Positions 24,520 through 33,397 of a stretch of DNA of 44,999 nt are shown here, piece after piece; the stretch's first letter is position 1, and the number at the start of each line of letters is the position of its first letter. Source of the DNA: Phycisphaerae bacterium (GTDB lineage Bacteria > Planctomycetota > Phycisphaerae > Sedimentisphaerales > Anaerobacaceae); NCBI GenBank assembly GCA_028714855.1, contig JAQTLP010000013.1:1-44999 (forward strand), given 5' to 3'. Below the pieces are notes generated by a model that saw nothing but the letters and a program-made list of their open reading frames with translations, was not told where the DNA came from and did not search any database. The position numbers and the translations under genes are program-made.

Positions 24520-24534
24520 ATAGTTGGAAATCAC

Positions 24535-24608
24535 GGGGCCGTAGCTCAACTGGTTAGAGCGTCGGACTGTCGATCCGAAGGTTGAGGGTTCGAGCCCCTT
24601 CGGCCTCG
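24535..24608 (+). tRNA. tRNA-Asp (anticodon GTC)
   Basis: The 74-base cloverleaf has acceptor arms GGGGCCG and CGGCCTC with discriminator G. The anticodon stem is TCGGA/TCCGA around loop CTGTCGA (GTC anticodon), and the T arm is GAGGG/CCCTT with TTCGAGC. No CCA is encoded. Confidence 0.97.
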
Positions 24609-24617
24609 TTTGAAACA

Positions 24618-24649
24618 GAAAAGGTCACCTTTTAGGTGGCCTTTTTTGT
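24618..24649 (+). terminator. Intrinsic terminator of tRNA-Asp
   Basis: AGGTCACC pairs with GGTGGCCT (one T-G pair) around a short T-rich loop, followed by a run of six T. It directly follows the tRNA. Confidence 0.8.
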
Positions 24650-24660
24650 TTAATGTACAA

Positions 24661-24757
24661 AAGGGCTCGAACCCAAAAGGGTGCGGGAAAAGGATTTATT
24701 CGGGCCCCTTCGGCCTCGTTTGAAACAAAAAGGCTTACCTCCAAGGTGGCCTTTTTT
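24661..24757 (+). repeat. Partial duplicate of tRNA-Asp 3' end and terminator (att-like scar)
   Basis: 24701-24727 repeats 24591-24617 with 26 of 27 bases identical: the last 18 bases of the tRNA and 9 bases beyond. A decayed second copy of the terminator follows (to ~24757). An inverted scrap of the T arm (AGGGCTCGAACCC) lies at 24662. Duplication of a tRNA 3' end is what site-specific integration leaves. No integrase is visible nearby, so this could also be a decayed tandem tRNA copy. Confidence 0.65.
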
Positions 24758-24840
24758 ATTAATTTTAACTTTTTAGTTGCCGCTGGTTTTTGATAGAATC
24801 TCTCACGCAAGTTAGAATATTTCTGAGCAGAAAGGAAAAA

Positions 24841-26019
24841 ATGAAAGACCATAAATCAAACTGCCCAAACAAAGCAAAATATCTGGCAGGAAAAAGAATC
24901 CTCCCCGAGCCCATTGACAAAGATACGGATGTGATAAAACTCATAGATAATCTCGATGCCTACAATGGCGGCAGATTACGGGCCGCCTGCCACCTGTTGC
25001 GGGATAAATACTCTAAAGATGATGTTACCATCGGCTTAAGCATCGCCGGCGCCCTGACCCCCGCAGGCCTGGGGCCTTCTACGATAATTCCACTTATGAA
25101 CCACGGCTTCGTCGATTGGTTCGTCGCGACAGGCGCTAATATGTATCACGATATCCATTACGCCTTCAACCTGCCGATGTTCCGCGGCAGCCATAATGTC
25201 AACGATGCAGACTTGAAAGCAAAAGGCGTAACAAGAATATACGACATTCTCTTCGACTATGAGGACGTCTTAATGGAAACCGACAGGAGATTAAGAGAAA
25301 TACTCATCAGGCCGGAATTTCAAAAGGAAATGGGAACGCGGGAATTCTATCATCACCTTGGCAAAATACTCAGCGAACTTGAGCAGAAAAATAACCTCGG
25401 CCAGGTAAGTATCCTCGCCGCTGCCTATCGCAACGGCATTCCGGTTTTTACGTCCTCCCCCGGCGATTCCACTATCGGTATGAACGTCGCCGGCATCGAG
25501 CTTCTCGCCGAAGCCTCCGGCTTGCTGGATAAATTCAAATTGAAAATCAATCCCAGTATCGACGTTAACGATTCGACAGCGATTATCTTAAACGCCAAGA
25601 GATACGAAAAAGGTAAAACTGGCGTGATTTTAATCGGCGGCGGCAGTCCCAAAAACTTTATGCTCCAGACCGAGCCCCAAATCCAGGAAGTCCTTATGAT
25701 TCCTGAAGTCGGGCAGGACTACGATATTAATATAACCGACGCCCGCCCCGACACCGGCGGCCTCTCCGGAGCGCCGCCCTCCGAAGCGGCCAGTTGGGGC
25801 AAAATCGACCCCACTAAACTCGAAGAAACCGTCACCGCCTACCTCGATGTCACCTTGGCGTTCCCGATAATGGTCGCATATACAATCCAGTCCGCTAAAC
25901 CAAAGAAACTAAAAAGACTATACGACCGTGGCGACGAGCTGCGCAGGAAACTAATCGAGTCCTACCTCGAAAACAACAAAGAAGTCGAAAAACTTAAAGG
26001 CCTTATCAAAAAACTGTGA
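24841..26019 (+). CDS. Deoxyhypusine-synthase-like enzyme, possible homospermidine synthase
   Basis: This 392-residue protein belongs to the deoxyhypusine synthase family of NAD-dependent aminobutyl transferases. The lysine that carries the intermediate in the human enzyme (SWGKI) is present as Lys321 in AASWGKIDP, and a second conserved lysine is Lys271 in GGGSPKNF. LSIAGALTPAGLGP, ATGANMYHD and RPDTGGLSGAPPSEA also fit. Bacteria lack eIF5A, so such homologues are thought to transfer the aminobutyl group to a small amine, for example making homospermidine. ATG 24841 follows AAAGGA. A PLP-dependent decarboxylase at 29976 could supply putrescine. The family is secure, the substrate inferred. 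Confidence 0.88.
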   Translation: MKDHKSNCPNKAKYLAGKRILPEPIDKDTDVIKLIDNLDAYNGGRLRAACHLLRDKYSKDDVTIGLSIAGALTPAGLGPSTIIPLMNHGFVDWFVATGANMYHDIHYAFNLPMFRGSHNVNDADLKAKGVTRIYDILFDYEDVLMETDRRLREILIRPEFQKEMGTREFYHHLGKILSELEQKNNLGQVSILAAAYRNGIPVFTSSPGDSTIGMNVAGIELLAEASGLLDKFKLKINPSIDVNDSTAIILNAKRYEKGKTGVILIGGGSPKNFMLQTEPQIQEVLMIPEVGQDYDINITDARPDTGGLSGAPPSEAASWGKIDPTKLEETVTAYLDVTLAFPIMVAYTIQSAKPKKLKRLYDRGDELRRKLIESYLENNKEVEKLKGLIKKL

Positions 26020-26083
26020 ACGTGGAAGGTCGCTAAGGCAAAAGTGGTGTAGATGATTAATTTATGCCGTGGAGAGGTGCCAA

Positions 26084-27211
26084 TTGCAATTTCAAGGATT
26101 TCAGTACTTTAAGGAAATTCGAAGCAAAATAAAAGACACTCCCTTTCCCAAAGCGTATTTGGGTTTGGCTTCGCCTTTAGGATTTTCCTCAAACAGAAAA
26201 CGGCTTCTTTATGACCAGCTTTTCTTCAATGACCAAGTAATTATTCCCAATAATATGGCTCGATATTACAAAATGGACTTGCAAGATGTTCAGGATATTC
26301 TGGTGCCAGTCGAAACCCATCACATTTTTGGAGAATTAAAATCGGTCAGACTTGTGAATCGATACCTTTGGGAGTCTGATTCAGAGTTACTAAGCCAATT
26401 ACTCATTTTTTGGTTCGGAGGTCGTGTTGGGAATCTAATGTCAAAGACTTTGTTCGGACCAAGATATTCTCCTTTTGTATTTTATTTGAAGCCTGCTAAT
26501 AGTAAGGACCTTTTTGATGAGTATATCAAGACGCACCTCTCTTGGGCAAGTTGGATTTCAGAAGACTACCTAATTGCGGCACTTTTAGGTATCAACCCTT
26601 GCCTTTTGGGTACTCTTCATGAACAGTTGCAATGCAATTTTTCAGTAGTTTGGTCTTCAGGCAAGACTACGAGCCACAATATTGTTAGCCTAACAAACGT
26701 GGCTGAATTTGAGAAAATCAAAAGTATAAGTAGACTTCACAAAGAAAAAGATTATGAAAAATTACCCCTCGATGTTTTGTTATGCGAGAGTAAAGAAAAA
26801 TCAGTAAACTACGAAGATATACCCCTCGCGGAATATATCAAATTAATCGAAACCAAGGCTGTAAGAAAACTTAGGGAGGAGATGTGGACTCTTTCTAAAA
26901 ATAAAACGAGAAAGAATTTTAGTGCAGACCTTGAGGGAATAAAGGAGGCCAAAATTGGTTATTTCCGCAATTTTATGAAGACCTATCCGATCTCACTCAA
27001 TGACCTCGCTGTGCCTGCGGCTATTGATATTCTCGTTTGGTACTTTAAAATATTCGAAATACCAGTAGCTAGCATAGGTACCGCAACGCTCACGATGAGG
27101 GACTATCTTACTGAGACTATCAAAAACGGAAAGAAGGTTAGATTGAAAAGTTCCATAGCGAAACTCAAGACAGAATTAGAACGCAGCCTGAATATTTCGA
27201 AGGGCTCATAA
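26084..27211 (+). CDS. Unrecognised 375-aa protein
   Basis: I do not recognise this protein. It is soluble, with no signal peptide and no clear membrane helix; aromatic-rich early regions (YLGLASPLGFSSNRKRLLYDQLFF) give way to a lysine-rich helical C-terminus (TIKNGKKVRLKSSIAKLKTELERS). The TTG at 26084 is chosen because GGAGAGG lies 6 bases upstream; a GTG at 26069 is the alternative. The gene looks more A/T-rich than its neighbours and lies beyond the tRNA-Asp scar, followed by 500 bases of non-coding debris. These are hints of recent acquisition. No nuclease, ATPase or toxin motif was found, so I assign no function. Confidence 0.65.
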   Translation: MQFQGFQYFKEIRSKIKDTPFPKAYLGLASPLGFSSNRKRLLYDQLFFNDQVIIPNNMARYYKMDLQDVQDILVPVETHHIFGELKSVRLVNRYLWESDSELLSQLLIFWFGGRVGNLMSKTLFGPRYSPFVFYLKPANSKDLFDEYIKTHLSWASWISEDYLIAALLGINPCLLGTLHEQLQCNFSVVWSSGKTTSHNIVSLTNVAEFEKIKSISRLHKEKDYEKLPLDVLLCESKEKSVNYEDIPLAEYIKLIETKAVRKLREEMWTLSKNKTRKNFSADLEGIKEAKIGYFRNFMKTYPISLNDLAVPAAIDILVWYFKIFEIPVASIGTATLTMRDYLTETIKNGKKVRLKSSIAKLKTELERSLNISKGS

Positions 27212-27709
27212 GCTGGCCGAATATTAGCATAATGGCAGGATAAAATCGACGTATCCAAACTATCTGTCGCCAGTATTCGCAGGTTAAGAGCAATATAAAA
27301 TTGTCATTGCGAACCCCATGTCTTGCTGTCCCATCAGGGTCAAATTTTAAATCTTAAATTCTCTCCTGCTCCACAATTTTTATTCGCCTACGGCGGGTAA
27401 ATTTGCCCTGCTTGCCCGCCCCGGCAAGTCGTAGGCAGGGGTCGTTACCGGGGGAGCGTTAAGGCCTTAATGGGGGGGACGTCTTTTTACATCAGGCTTA
27501 AAATGCCCGAATATGATGAATTGTTACCATATAGATAAAAATACTTGACAAATCATATACAGAAATGTACTATTATATATGCATTCTGAAGCGAAGGATG
27601 GGACACAGAGAGCAGGAAGTCGGAGTGAGGCAGCAATCGGCATACATAGGCATTTCTTTTCGTCTCACTTAATTTGCTGATACATTAAAGTTTTTTAAGG
27701 AGAACAGTG
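27212..27709. other. Intergenic spacer with nested palindromes and a promoter
   Basis: No credible gene is seen. Positions 27385-27440 hold nested inverted repeats: CGCC/GGCG at 27385 and 27392, TTGCC/GGCAA at 27412 and 27423, CCCTGC/GCAGGG at 27406 and 27435, and GCCTACG/CGTAGGC at 27386 and 27430. This resembles a small dispersed hairpin repeat. The stretch around 27302 (TTGTCATTGCGAA) also looks like repeat debris. A promoter for the next gene lies at 27545-27573. Confidence 0.5.
27545..27573 (+). promoter_or_regulatory. Promoter for the PEP-CTERM gene
   Basis: A perfect TTGACA (27545-27550), a 17-base spacer and TACTAT (27568-27573) lie 137 bases before the ATG, leaving a leader of about 130 bases. 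Confidence 0.5.
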
Positions 27710-28393
27710 ATGAAAGCCGTAAATTTGACAAGAGTGAGAGTTTTTATATTTGTCATTTGCCTCGTTGCCGCCGGATTTACATCGAGTGCGGTCGCGATGC
27801 CTGTGCCGGTCGATGGATTTACAAGTCCGGATTTGCCGCCTGTTCATCCTAACCCGAATGTCGCTTACCGCAGTGAAGAAGGGGTTATTTATTATCCCTT
27901 CGTAGGCATATCTTTATCTGATATCACGCACGGCAGTTTCACGAATATCAGCCGGTCGTATATCGGCGGCGATGAAATAGAATACTTCGATTCAGTTGTA
28001 ACGGCTGCCGTTGATATTTCCGGGATAGGTAATTTTCCTGCTGTGTTGGCCGGACCGGTAACTGCGCAGGTATATAGCAAGACAAGTGGTCAGACTGGGA
28101 CGTTCCAAACGGAAATTATCAGTATGACAATGTCAGGCAATGTAGGCGGTGTAAATGTTATGGTTCGTGAAAGTCCAACTTTAAGTTCTTCCGGCCAAAC
28201 ATCCATCGAGATGTCGAGCAGCGGCTGGTATATTGGAAGCTTCTTCGATGTTTATACTGAGCTGTCAATCGATGGCGGACAAACCTGGGTCCCGTCAGAA
28301 GAAAGCTGCCGAATGGTTCTTGTGCCGGAACCGGCCACAATTTGCCTTTTGGTTTTTGGCGGCCTGGGAATTCTTGCAAGGAAACGAAGATAG
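27710..28393 (+). CDS. PEP-CTERM sorting-domain protein
   Basis: This 227-residue protein has an N-terminal signal peptide (VRVFIFVICLVAAGFTSSAVA) and the C-terminal tripartite PEP-CTERM signal: VPEPAT, a hydrophobic helix (ICLLVFGGLGILA) and RKRR. Exosortase recognises that signal in the envelope and processes it, after which the protein is surface-bound or released into a matrix. The middle is beta-rich and has no recognised catalytic domain. ATG 27710 follows AAGGAG at 7 bases. It stands alone with its own promoter and terminator. No exosortase gene is in this window. Confidence 0.9.
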   Translation: MKAVNLTRVRVFIFVICLVAAGFTSSAVAMPVPVDGFTSPDLPPVHPNPNVAYRSEEGVIYYPFVGISLSDITHGSFTNISRSYIGGDEIEYFDSVVTAAVDISGIGNFPAVLAGPVTAQVYSKTSGQTGTFQTEIISMTMSGNVGGVNVMVRESPTLSSSGQTSIEMSSSGWYIGSFFDVYTELSIDGGQTWVPSEESCRMVLVPEPATICLLVFGGLGILARKRR

Positions 28394-28422
28394 GCTTAAG
28401 CAGTTTATAATAGTTGATAAAA

Positions 28423-28449
28423 AGCCCTGCAAAAAACAGGGCTTTTTTT
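28423..28449 (+). terminator. Intrinsic terminator of the PEP-CTERM gene
   Basis: AGCCCTG (28423-28429) pairs with CAGGGCT (28437-28443) around CAAAAAA, followed by seven T. Confidence 0.9.
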
Positions 28450-28569
28450 ATTATCTTATTTCTAATCCGGACGGGCATTCGTTTAAATCACAACTTCCTT
28501 CCCTCTTGGGGTAGCTTGCGCCACGTGATTAATTCTCCTTCGCGCCTTTATTTCCCAACAATGAAATGT

Positions 28570-29094
28570 TCATCTAAACTCGTAATAAAGCCCTGCGATG
28601 AGAATAAAAATCGTAACTGCGATAAAAACAGGTTTATTTATTAAGAATGTAACGAAAGTATATTCTTGGCTGAGAACAGCCTCTGCTGGATTGTCAGGGT
28701 TTACGAAACACCCAGTTTCTTCCCCCTGCAAGTATGGTCCTCTCGGCGTATACGACTGTCCGCGCTTTAGTCTTTCTGTTGTTATTCTTTTCCCCTCCTC
28801 ACGCGTTATAATTATGTGTCTTCTAAGAATATTGTACCGGTTAGAAGCATACTCTTGTCCATTATATTTGTAGGTATAGTGTATGTTCCAAAAGAGTATA
28901 TCATCTTGAGTCGAAGGGTCGATGTCTACATATACTGAATCGACAACGCATCTTGTGGGTACCCAATTATTTACTTTTTTTACCTTAACTGCTGTTGATA
29001 GTATAGCGTAACAAATCCCGATAATAGAGCCGACTAATAATATCATTGCTATAGCCCGCTTATAGTTAAAATCTTTTCTATTATTGTGTTCCAA
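28570..29094 (-). CDS. DUF3592-like small membrane protein
   Basis: This 174-residue protein has one membrane helix near the N-terminus (AIAMILLVGSIIGICYAIL) and another at the C-terminus (PVFIAVTIFILIAGLYYEF). Between them is a beta-rich domain with the DUF3592 pattern WVPTRCVVDSV...YTYKYNGQEYASNRY...GCFVNPDNPAEAVL. The role of DUF3592 proteins is unknown. The start is uncertain: TTG 29094 has a weak GAGA upstream, and ATG 29046 would cut into the first helix. The gene is isolated and faces the PEP-CTERM gene. Confidence 0.75.
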   Translation of the reverse strand: MEHNNRKDFNYKRAIAMILLVGSIIGICYAILSTAVKVKKVNNWVPTRCVVDSVYVDIDPSTQDDILFWNIHYTYKYNGQEYASNRYNILRRHIIITREEGKRITTERLKRGQSYTPRGPYLQGEETGCFVNPDNPAEAVLSQEYTFVTFLINKPVFIAVTIFILIAGLYYEFR

Positions 29095-29605
29095 GGACGT
29101 CTCTCAATTAATAAAATACTCTTTACTAAAATCTGGCTCCTTTTAGTCGTTATCGGTTTCTGTCGATTATCAGGAAGCGGTTATTTTCCCCCAAACTCCC
29201 ACGACTTTCAACCTCAAAAAATTCGCTTGTGCTGCCTGCGGTTCGGATACTTTTTTTTCTTACTTAGTCCTGCGGCCTCCGGCAACTTGTGCCCTATGTG
29301 CACTTCGCAATCCATCTTTATCAAACCCATTTATTCTCAAATCCCACAAAAAAAGCCCCCTGATTGCTTAATCACAACATTAGCATATATGCATATACTA
29401 ACATACTTTTGGCGAACGACGAGTCACAAGCCACATGACAAATCAATCAAATGCGCAGGGGGATAAAAGTGAAAACTCATTTTATTGAAAATTTTTTTAC
29501 TCCTTTCCCCACATCGAGTTACGAGAGACCAGCGACAAGCGACGAGCTCATTTTTCGCATCATTCGCGCAAGTCCCTCCAATTACGAGGGGATGTATTCC
29601 CCTCG

Positions 29606-29644
29606 CCCCCGTCGTCTTGCTTCGCTCTTGCGAAGCAGCGGGGG
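29606..29644. repeat. Compound cruciform palindrome
   Basis: An inner perfect stem, GCTTCGC 29619-29625 with GCGAAGC 29630-29636, lies inside an outer stem CCCCCG 29606-29611 with CGGGGG 29639-29644. There is no T tail, so it is not an obvious terminator. Confidence 0.6.
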
Positions 29645-29786
29645 GATAGTTTTGAAAGGAATTACCAATGAGTGGTTACCAGTAACTAATCAATACTTAC
29701 AATGTGTTTTTTTTTCTCTGTGGCTGAAATTTCGGCACCGGAGATTCTCTATTTATAGGGAAAAAATCAATCAAAAATGATTAATT

Positions 29787-29951
29787 ATGCAAAACGAACC
29801 CAATTTTCAAAACGCCAAAAATGGATATAACTATAGTAACAGCAATGACTACGAACAAAAAACTACGAACTATGAACTCTCAAAAACGAACCCAAACAAA
29901 GCCAATTTTGCCGCTCCGAATCTCTCGAATAAAATCTTGATTACAAGATAG
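29787..29951 (+). other. 54-codon Asn/Lys-rich frame, likely dispersed repeat rather than a gene
   Basis: From ATG 29787 to TAG 29951 the frame reads MQNEPNFQNAKNGYNYSN..., with a later KTNPNKANF. Asn, Lys, Tyr and Glu dominate. From memory, similar KTNPxKxNF peptides recur between genes in Phycisphaerae-type genomes, which would make this a copy of a dispersed element. There is no ribosome binding site, so translation is doubtful. Confidence 0.3.
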
Positions 29952-31126: not shown

Positions 31127-32206
31127 TTAGCGTTTAACGAAAGCGATGTCCCAGTCCTTCCAGACCGGCTCGAACCCGTGCGCCCTTATCATCTCGGCCA
31201 CCTCGGCTGGGCTGCGAGCGTCGTCGATTTCGAATTGCTCGGCCGCATTCCTTGGTTGTGAATACCCGCCCGGGCTGGTCTTGCTGCCCGCACTTACCTT
31301 GGTTATTCCTACTTCGATTAAGTGGTCTCTCAACTCAGCTCTTTCGCGCGTTGACAGTACCATCCCGGCATCGGCAAAGCACAGTCGCAGCGCAATTATC
31401 ATTTGCACGAGATTCTTATCGCTGAGGAAACGAAACTGCGCTCTGTCGACGTTCTTTGCCGGCCGTAGTCTCGGAAACGAAAACGACACCCGCGATTTCC
31501 AGTATCGCTTCATAAGATAATGTGCGTGCTCGCCGAGCGCCAGTGTTTCAAGCCGCCAGTCGGATAAACCCAGCAAGGCCCCGATGCCGATTTCTCTCAT
31601 TCCCGCCTGCGCAATACTGTCCGGTGCTGATAACCGGTAATCATAGTCGGCCTTCGGGCCTGCGGGATGATATTGGCGATATACATCGCGGTCGTATGTC
31701 TCCTGATATAACGTTACGCCCTCGATACCCGCAGCGAAAAGCTTCGCGTATTCTTCGGTCGTCATTTGATAGACTTCTATCGAGATGGAGCTGAATTTGC
31801 CTCTCAATCTGCCTGCAAGCTCGCAAAGATAATCGACGCTGATGAATTCTCTGTCCTCGCTGCTGACGAGTAATATGTCCCTGAATCCTTCCGAAGCGAT
31901 AATGTCCGCTTCTTTGACTGCTTGCTCAATCGTTAATCTTCTCCGCTCGTATTTGTTTTCTTTGTTGAAGCCGCAGTATACACAGTTATTTACGCAGTAA
32001 TTCGATAAATACAGCGGTGCATATAGCCGGACAGTTTTGCCGAATCTTTGCATCGTAAGCTGCCGGGCCATCTGCGCCATCTCTTCAAGATAGCCCTCAG
32101 CCGTTGGTGAAATTAGCGCCGCCAGTTTCTCTGGGCTGTAACTGCCGGCAGGGGAGTTCATCGCCCGCTCGATGTCACTATTATTTATTTCGCTTGGATA
32201 TTTCAT
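31127..32206 (-). CDS. thiH: 2-iminoacetate synthase (tyrosine lyase)
   Basis: This 359-residue radical SAM enzyme cleaves tyrosine to 2-iminoacetate (dehydroglycine) and p-cresol for thiazole synthesis in anaerobes. The cluster motif is Cys71-x3-Cys75-x2-Cys78 in [18 protein letters not shown] just before it, [11 protein letters not shown] and the C-terminal [11 protein letters not shown] are typical of ThiH. It overlaps thiG by 26 bases, so translation is probably coupled, and it is the last gene of the thiS-thiG-thiH operon. Use of ThiH rather than the glycine oxidase ThiO fits an anaerobic or microaerobic life. Confidence 0.95.
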
Positions 32207-33206: not shown

Positions 33207-33235
33207 TAAAAAAGCACTCCTGCAAAGGGAGTGCT
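33207..33235 (-). terminator. Intrinsic terminator in the thiS leader (riboswitch expression platform)
   Basis: On the minus strand AGCACTCC (33235-33228) pairs perfectly with GGAGTGCT (33220-33213), followed by a T run. It sits between the TPP aptamer and the thiS start, as in a transcription-attenuating riboswitch. Confidence 0.85.
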
Positions 33236-33245
33236 CTAAATTTTT

Positions 33246-33348
33246 TGCCTTCCTTCGCAGGTCTTAACCCGAGCAGGTTCTTAGGGTCATCGCCATATCG
33301 GCGATTTCTCAGCTTGCCGCGGGTTTTGCCATTGGCACGCTCCCCTGG
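33246..33348 (-). promoter_or_regulatory. TPP riboswitch (THI element) of the thiS-thiG-thiH operon
   Basis: Read on the minus strand, the region contains the conserved THI-box blocks in order: CAGGGGAGC at the 5' side, GCTGAGAAA, a variable hairpin (ATCGCC...GGCGAT), GACCCTAAGAACCTG, CGGGTTAAGACC and GCGAAGGAA. These match the TPP-sensing aptamer. With the hairpin at 33207-33235 it should stop transcription when thiamine pyrophosphate is plentiful. Confidence 0.95.
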
Positions 33349-33397
33349 CTTATTCAAATTTATCTCGCCATCTGTTTGGCGGATTTTACTCGGATAT

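Follow-up and report, generated by a model that had tools for sequence, protein, structure and literature searches.

The described systems closest to the locus reported herein include the tRNA- and tmRNA-targeting islands collected by Islander, the crossover sites of which lie in the anticodon loop, the T loop or at the T/acceptor junction according to the available part of the source (PMC4383910). The same part states that candidates without an integrase or smaller than 2 kb are rejected; because these rules require both an integrase and at least 2 kb, elements of the type described below are hidden from such searches. In the available part of a review of small repeats (PMC2229807), most MITE-like repeats are characterized as A+T-rich, with TA ends and terminal inverted repeats, and the word tRNA is absent from that part of the text. 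Partial tRNAs have been ascribed to the integration of genetic elements and to CRISPR activity (PMC9897764, available in part).

The scar at the tRNA-Asp gene in the window, which denotes the whole stretch of 44,999 nucleotides that was analyzed, is probably the decayed remnant of a small non-coding mobile element that inserted here and then lost part of its interior, and the best reading of the element is that it is non-autonomous. In common with Islander-type islands at tRNA and tmRNA genes, it has an intact tRNA gene, a co-oriented 3' fragment at a distance from it and a duplication that starts from the T loop; it differs from them in being an element of about 150-205 nt without an integrase or cargo, and in having an inverted T arm and a conserved folded core. 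Neither an integrase nor more than 2 kb is present between the repeats, which are separated by 48 nt in the window, and the 39 full copies measured do not exceed 205 nt.

The original prediction was that the 3' end of tRNA-Asp and its terminator were duplicated 110 bp downstream, with an inverted scrap of the T arm between the repeats, and both observations were borne out (Table 1). Positions 24589-24617 are repeated at 24699-24727 in the same orientation with one mismatch in 29 and a spacing of 110, and the likeness continues through the terminator, with 57 of 69 positions being identical without gaps. The inverted T arm accounts for the reverse-strand match 24586-24674 in a search of the own genome. 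Since 28 of 29 positions match in the same orientation, the flanks are homologous and the repeat is absent in two congeners, the duplicated tRNA-Asp end is not attributable to chance.

Table 1. Features of the tRNA-Asp locus in the window and of its downstream neighbor.
Feature	Position	Strand	Basis or remark
tRNA-Asp (GTC), intact host gene	24534..24609	+	ARAGORN; Rfam gives 24535-24608
Duplicated segment, left copy: T loop to tRNA end, terminator included	24589..24650	+	Overlap with G001 and G002
First terminator-like hairpin and T run (left copy)	24614..24651	+	Inverted repeat I1
48-nt inserted stretch, apparent element remainder	24651..24698	+	Alignment to congeners
Inverted T arm of host tRNA (AAGGGCTCGAACCC), left end of element	24661..24674	-	Same arrangement in L037
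Conserved-core remnant AAAGGGTGCGGGAAAAGGATT	24676..24696	+	0 mismatches to the family 21-mer
Internal deletion point	24697..24699	+	By-eye comparison with L037
Duplicated segment, right copy: tRNA-Asp 3' end and second terminator	24699..24760	+	Window self-comparison; congeners
Homospermidine-biosynthesis-like gene, outside element	24841..26019	+	Direct neighbor in both congeners too

In the two congeners searched (G001 and G002), one tRNA-Asp and one terminator are followed, with no insert, by the homospermidine-synthase-like gene, the protein of which is 92% (G001) and 96% (G002) identical to that of the window. Compared with these sites, the window uses 62 nt (G001) or 63 nt (G002) twice and has 48 nt without a counterpart, and its duplication extends approximately 41 nt beyond the gene, into the host-type terminator. 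Over 40 columns after the gene, the window copies agree with each other at 32 of 39 positions and with G002 at 30 and 31 of 40; four columns further, these values are 34 of 43 for the two copies versus 33 of 44 to G002. Three bases in the terminator region are common to both window copies and different from both congeners, and the duplication therefore looks host-made, albeit from few sites; the comparison points to the duplicated segment being the host's own sequence. A precise loss in both G001 and G002, instead of an insertion in the window, is a less simple explanation. Another pair of empty and filled sites was found at tRNA-Ser(TGA) within one genus, in which G074 is empty and G076 is filled, with a 20-nt duplication (GAATCCCTCCTGCTCCGTTA), and the sequence downstream is the same in both. 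The G076 copy has the GAGGGATGAGAAC arm, the hairpins and the right fragment, with a diverged core; it was recognized from its layout and partial motifs, the covariance model described below giving no match in G076.

The 21-mer of the window, with up to two mismatches, gave 14 matches in 61 related genomes and the reversed control pattern gave none. By reading, 12 of the 14 are placed behind a complete or partial tRNA or tmRNA 3' end (the exceptions are L036 and L039); the copy in the window and two units from a single tandem array are counted among the 12. Full copies have a length of about 150-205 nt (153-205 in the 39 measured), and from left to right consist of the tRNA, a short spacer, the inverted T arm, a AAAGGGTGYGGGAAAAG hairpin, GGGGTGAC, a hairpin, CCAGAGGGGC-loop-GCCCCTATGG, a hairpin, GGTTC, in many cases a GC hairpin (14 nt long in 13 of 29 loci), and GARTCC with the remaining tRNA 3' end. 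In this typical layout, the tRNA sequence at the right end is the 3' end of the same tRNA that precedes the element.

A full copy in G007, which belongs to another genus, follows the terminator of a 5'-truncated tRNA-Asp, and a second terminator follows its right copy (L037). By-eye comparison with L037 indicates that the window copy is without roughly 105 nt, namely, the remainder of hairpin B, hairpins C, D and E, and the T-loop hairpin. The window copy is too short for the covariance model and was not found by it, and, thus, its assignment rests on the 21-mer, the layout and L037; this copy is itself a fossil. Upstream of L037 (G007:C41), a fragment reads by eye like the C-terminus of a tyrosine recombinase, followed by the 5'-truncated tRNA-Asp, and an island may have joined this gene independently of the element.

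The motif CCAGAGGGGCN{2,6}GCCCCTATGG was found in at least 115 stretches of the genome contigs, and 116 matches were read. Among the matches listed, a complete tRNA or tmRNA ended 70-180 nt upstream on the same strand in 46 of 116, and none was called on the opposite strand in that interval; the remaining matches include truncated tRNA loci, chance matches and copies without a tRNA (class B, see below). Judging by the record titles of the first 80 of at least 115 matches, the core is present in approximately eight bacterial phyla, and the records that show the wider core include Planctomycetota, Omnitrophota, Clostridia, Zixibacteriota, Rokubacteria, Holophagaceae, Uhrbacteria and Elusimicrobia, although these are metagenome bins and some labels may be wrong. 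Dehalococcoidales and Pseudomonas records showed little beyond the motif or had a different appearance. The Pseudomonas loci L087, L110, L137 and L158 look like a different structure, and the pattern matches of L137 and L158, which have weak model scores (37.2 and 34.5 bits), lie within a differently organized structure.

A covariance model was built from 41 copies, comprising 39 with an annotated tRNA, L037 and L040. With strict filters, it gave 34 matches in 21 of the 161 genomes of the order, with a maximum of seven copies in one genome (G019), and at 23 of 30 model loci in the order a complete tRNA or tmRNA was in place on the same strand. The latter count, that of 46 in 116, the flanking repeats and the 45-locus set described below are not independent because the genome-contig loci and the genomes overlap; L042 and L069, for instance, are the same sequence. 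At L040 (G039:C27), the host tRNA seemingly has a group I intron (Rfam, 79.6 bits), with the element behind it.

Flanking direct repeats of at least 16 nt, with one mismatch allowed, were present at 23 of 30 model loci and at 2 of 111 shifted controls; these 23 loci and the 23 with a complete tRNA or tmRNA are not identical sets. In 16 of the 23, the repeat begins in the T loop at what we take to be C56 or G57; the end is mostly a few nt beyond the gene, and the repeat of L187 is in the spacer instead. The duplication is mostly 17-30 nt in the loci measured and approximately 62 nt in the window.

The sequences on both sides of the core are matched to the tRNA that they accompany. In a set of 45 loci, the direct (right) copy fitted its own tRNA better than any with a different T arm in 38 and was not best for its own tRNA in seven, with a score sum of 786 against a permutation mean of 321 and maximum of 435. 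The inverted copy scored 427 (permutation mean 292, maximum 336 in 10,000), but its own tRNA was the single best fit in only 14 of the 45 loci and the best or joint best in 22. When the 8-nt left arm was compared with its own right copy in the 29 loci with a clear GAAC anchor (17 were dropped), 184 of 232 positions paired, whereas permutations gave 143.7 on average and never more than 162, and the arms of nine loci paired perfectly. Four tRNA-Gln loci (L051, L081, L108 and L121) have different T stems, and each arm fits, with 6 to 8 of 8 pairs. Chimeric loci were also observed: L075 has tRNA-Asn on the left and a tRNA-Arg-like sequence on the right, while L082/L221 has tRNA-Ala on the left and tRNA-Asp on the right. 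Since the two flanks of L075 are at separate places in G003, a rearrangement through the element is likely at this locus, and the element may have been a rearrangement point at L221 (G019:C59) and L200/L075 (G077). The same tRNA (Gln, Met, Ser or tmRNA) is occupied in several species, and this recurring use could reflect old vertical retention.

Regarding folding, three copies had z-scores of -4.7, -5.1 and -5.7 against shuffled sequences. The tRNA-sense strand folded better than its complement in 42 of 45 copies linked to a tRNA and in 45 of 48 others, as compared with 23 of 44 and 27 of 47 control sequences taken downstream, respectively, a test that is partly driven by the motif common to the copies. 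G-T exceeded A-C mismatches by 28:11 in tRNA-linked and 46:23 in other copies. Covariation was seen in hairpin B, and hairpin D is invariant because the copies were selected by it. Pairing between the left arm and right fragment appeared in the minimum-energy fold of one copy, partly in that of a second, and not in that of L037, and in only part of a set of 39 folds.

The same core is also found without a tRNA, often just 5' of ORFs (class B; L049, L059, L065-L067, L073, L099, L111 and others). These copies often have a palindrome like TCGGAATTT-AAATTCCGA at the left and ATCTTG at the right, and up to 35 are held by one genome (G163). The covariance model also recognizes them, with approximately 30 bits of their scores being contributed by the 24-base collecting pattern alone. 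An apparently empty class B site with a 13-nt repeat was discounted, since the right-end consensus of the element itself is present in the version without the insert. Nested in the class B copies L065, L067 and L071 is another small repeat, GTGTTAGCGACGGGCGCGAGATGGTGAGCGCCCC, which is in tandem in L067/L071.

Considering known families of small mobile DNA, the element resembles the MITE-like repeats Correia/NEMIS, RUP and CIR, which are about or below 200 bp, non-coding, dispersed and folded, with target duplication, in the available part of PMC2229807; the present copies are likewise short, non-coding and dispersed, with empty sites and target duplication. They differ in having an inverted arm that matches the particular tRNA targeted and in being sited at tRNA 3' ends, and A+T-richness is not seen, the G+C content being 0.46-0.75 in 67 model matches (61 mostly non-tRNA loci). 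Group I and II introns, HEARO and other Rfam RNAs share structured RNA and site preference with the element, whereas a scan of 24 loci and of the window gave no Rfam 15 family above its cut-off on the element, the best score being 28.7 bits for Clostridiales-2 RNA (L040) versus a cut-off of 58.6. There is also a likeness to REP/RAYT and IS200/IS605-derived palindromes, which we take to be folded single-strand units with an irregular hairpin; however, the Y1 transposase (PF01797, E <= 1e-8) was found in 8 of 21 carrier genomes, versus 106 of 161 genomes overall, and was undetected in the other 13, including the seven-copy G019, although these genomes may be incomplete. Reverse transcriptase (RVT_1, E <= 1e-6) was present in five of the 21 carriers, the window's own genome included. 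As neither protein was detected in G019, which has the most copies in the order and the assembly of which may likewise be incomplete, they are not obvious agents there, and both were set aside as mobilizers because of their inconsistent presence among the 21 carriers. When 829 ORFs of at least 90 aa near the loci were clustered, the families shown looked housekeeping or syntenic by eye, and no recurrent partner protein or transposase-like family was recognized. The 24-base core pattern had no matches in IMG/VR, and a blastn search with one copy gave no match in plasmids or phages.

The original prediction that an element had integrated at the tRNA gene stands insofar as the insertion at the tRNA 3' end, the displaced 3' fragment and the two empty congeners are concerned; a larger integrase element reaching up to 31 kb does not agree with the right copy, which joins the ancestral downstream sequence directly. 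A large integrase island with its body deleted, as was then proposed, would account for the displaced fragment and the second terminator, but is highly unlikely and largely refuted: the 48 nt between the copies carry the family core, which at other tRNAs is likewise accompanied by an inverted T arm, and the downstream order is the same as at empty sites. A third copy further right, the presence of which had been suggested as a check, was not found in the own genome searched with the 271-base region, where the remaining above-noise matches fell on tRNA genes and, in one case, on 31 bases of the core at a different tRNA. The integrase sought in 24.8-31 kb did not emerge either, with five proteins tested giving no PHROG match and the four Pfam-matching proteins not being integrases. 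The scar is even less credible as a decayed tandem duplicate of tRNA-Asp, which we regard as barely conceivable; two tandem tRNA-Asp matches exist in G020, from another family of the order (G020:C1:2674358-2674535), but the window repeats the 3' end only, its two copies are separated by an inverted T arm and a foreign core, and the two tandem genes to be looked for in relatives were seen in neither G001 nor G002, each of which has one here.

Two further explanations concern the family as a whole. A tyrosine recombinase is a possible mobilizer, and the element may be a miniature integrative element moved by such an enzyme, with the integrase acting in trans or lost; the tRNA 3' block would then be an att core that restores the gene, and the inverted T arm a recombinase core site. 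A complete tRNA gene with a displaced 3' fragment in the same orientation is the signature of tRNA-targeting islands in the available part of PMC4383910, and the tandem units (e.g., L042) and the integrase-C-terminus-like stretch recognized by eye upstream of the G007 copy also speak for it. This explanation is nevertheless fairly unlikely, considering that full copies of about 150-205 nt leave no room for an integrase, that the same core occurs at many tRNAs with T stems matching on both sides, whereas a foreign tRNA would have part of its sequence replaced by the incoming att, that the window duplication runs approximately 41 nt past the gene into the host-type terminator, and that the strand-biased folding is unlike the needs of ordinary double-stranded att sites. 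Rather improbable in our estimation is a maintained structured RNA of certain tRNA transcription units, involved in processing, termination or regulation, that was spread by duplication and matched by selection and gene conversion. Its position 3' of and co-directional with the tRNA, the conserved fold with its wobble asymmetry, and the recurrence of one and the same host tRNA among several Omnitrophota and Planctomycetota are in its favor; against it are the patchy distribution (21 of 161 genomes), the many unrelated host tRNAs, the decayed copies (the window, L034 and L035, the tRNA of L035 differing from its right copy) and the empty sites in congeners.

Returning to the non-autonomous mobile element, the insertion relative to empty sites, the limits of the duplication, the tRNA-specific direct and inverted copies, the conserved folding and the patchy spread are established. 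In the mechanism that we propose, the full element can fold on the tRNA-sense strand into a series of hairpins around GGGGTGAC and CCAGAGGGGC-loop-GCCCCTATGG, and its insertion at a tRNA or tmRNA gene leaves the gene whole. One junction is placed in the T loop, mostly at C56/G57, and the other a few bases beyond the gene end or beyond a close terminator, such that the segment between them is duplicated. The left arm corresponds to the T stem of the same tRNA, inverted, and could thus pair with the right tRNA fragment, closing the hairpins into one domain. The element may move as a folded single-stranded form, either RNA or DNA, with the aid of an enzyme acting in trans, and its inverted arm would be copied from the target at insertion rather than evolved later. 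We only tentatively suggest that this may represent a new mode of mobility, in which a protein-free folded element, on entering any tRNA or tmRNA gene, would duplicate the tRNA 3' end and take up the T stem of its target, reversed, as its left arm, each copy having a guide-like, target-matched arm and leaving the tRNA intact.

The open-access literature searched contained no description of such an element, and the family of small elements is apparently undescribed. Although its members encode no integrase, they exploit the 3' ends of tRNA genes, and they seem to incorporate a copy of target sequence. Island finders discard such elements by design, and part of the tRNA fragments by which annotation is confused may have originated from them.

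Downstream of the homospermidine-synthase-like gene, positions 26020-29900 of the window form a variable locus that extends to a lysA-like decarboxylase gene and contains a 380-aa ORF without a Pfam or NCBIfam match, a PEP-CTERM protein, a DUF3592 protein and repeats. No blastn match to this stretch was found at the same place in G001 or G002, except for a short weak one at approximately 29.8 kb in G001, and this variability (26.0-29.9 kb) apparently has no connection with the element at the tRNA. Further downstream, Rfam predicts a TPP riboswitch at 33233-33356 on the minus strand, near a thiH gene (31127-32206).
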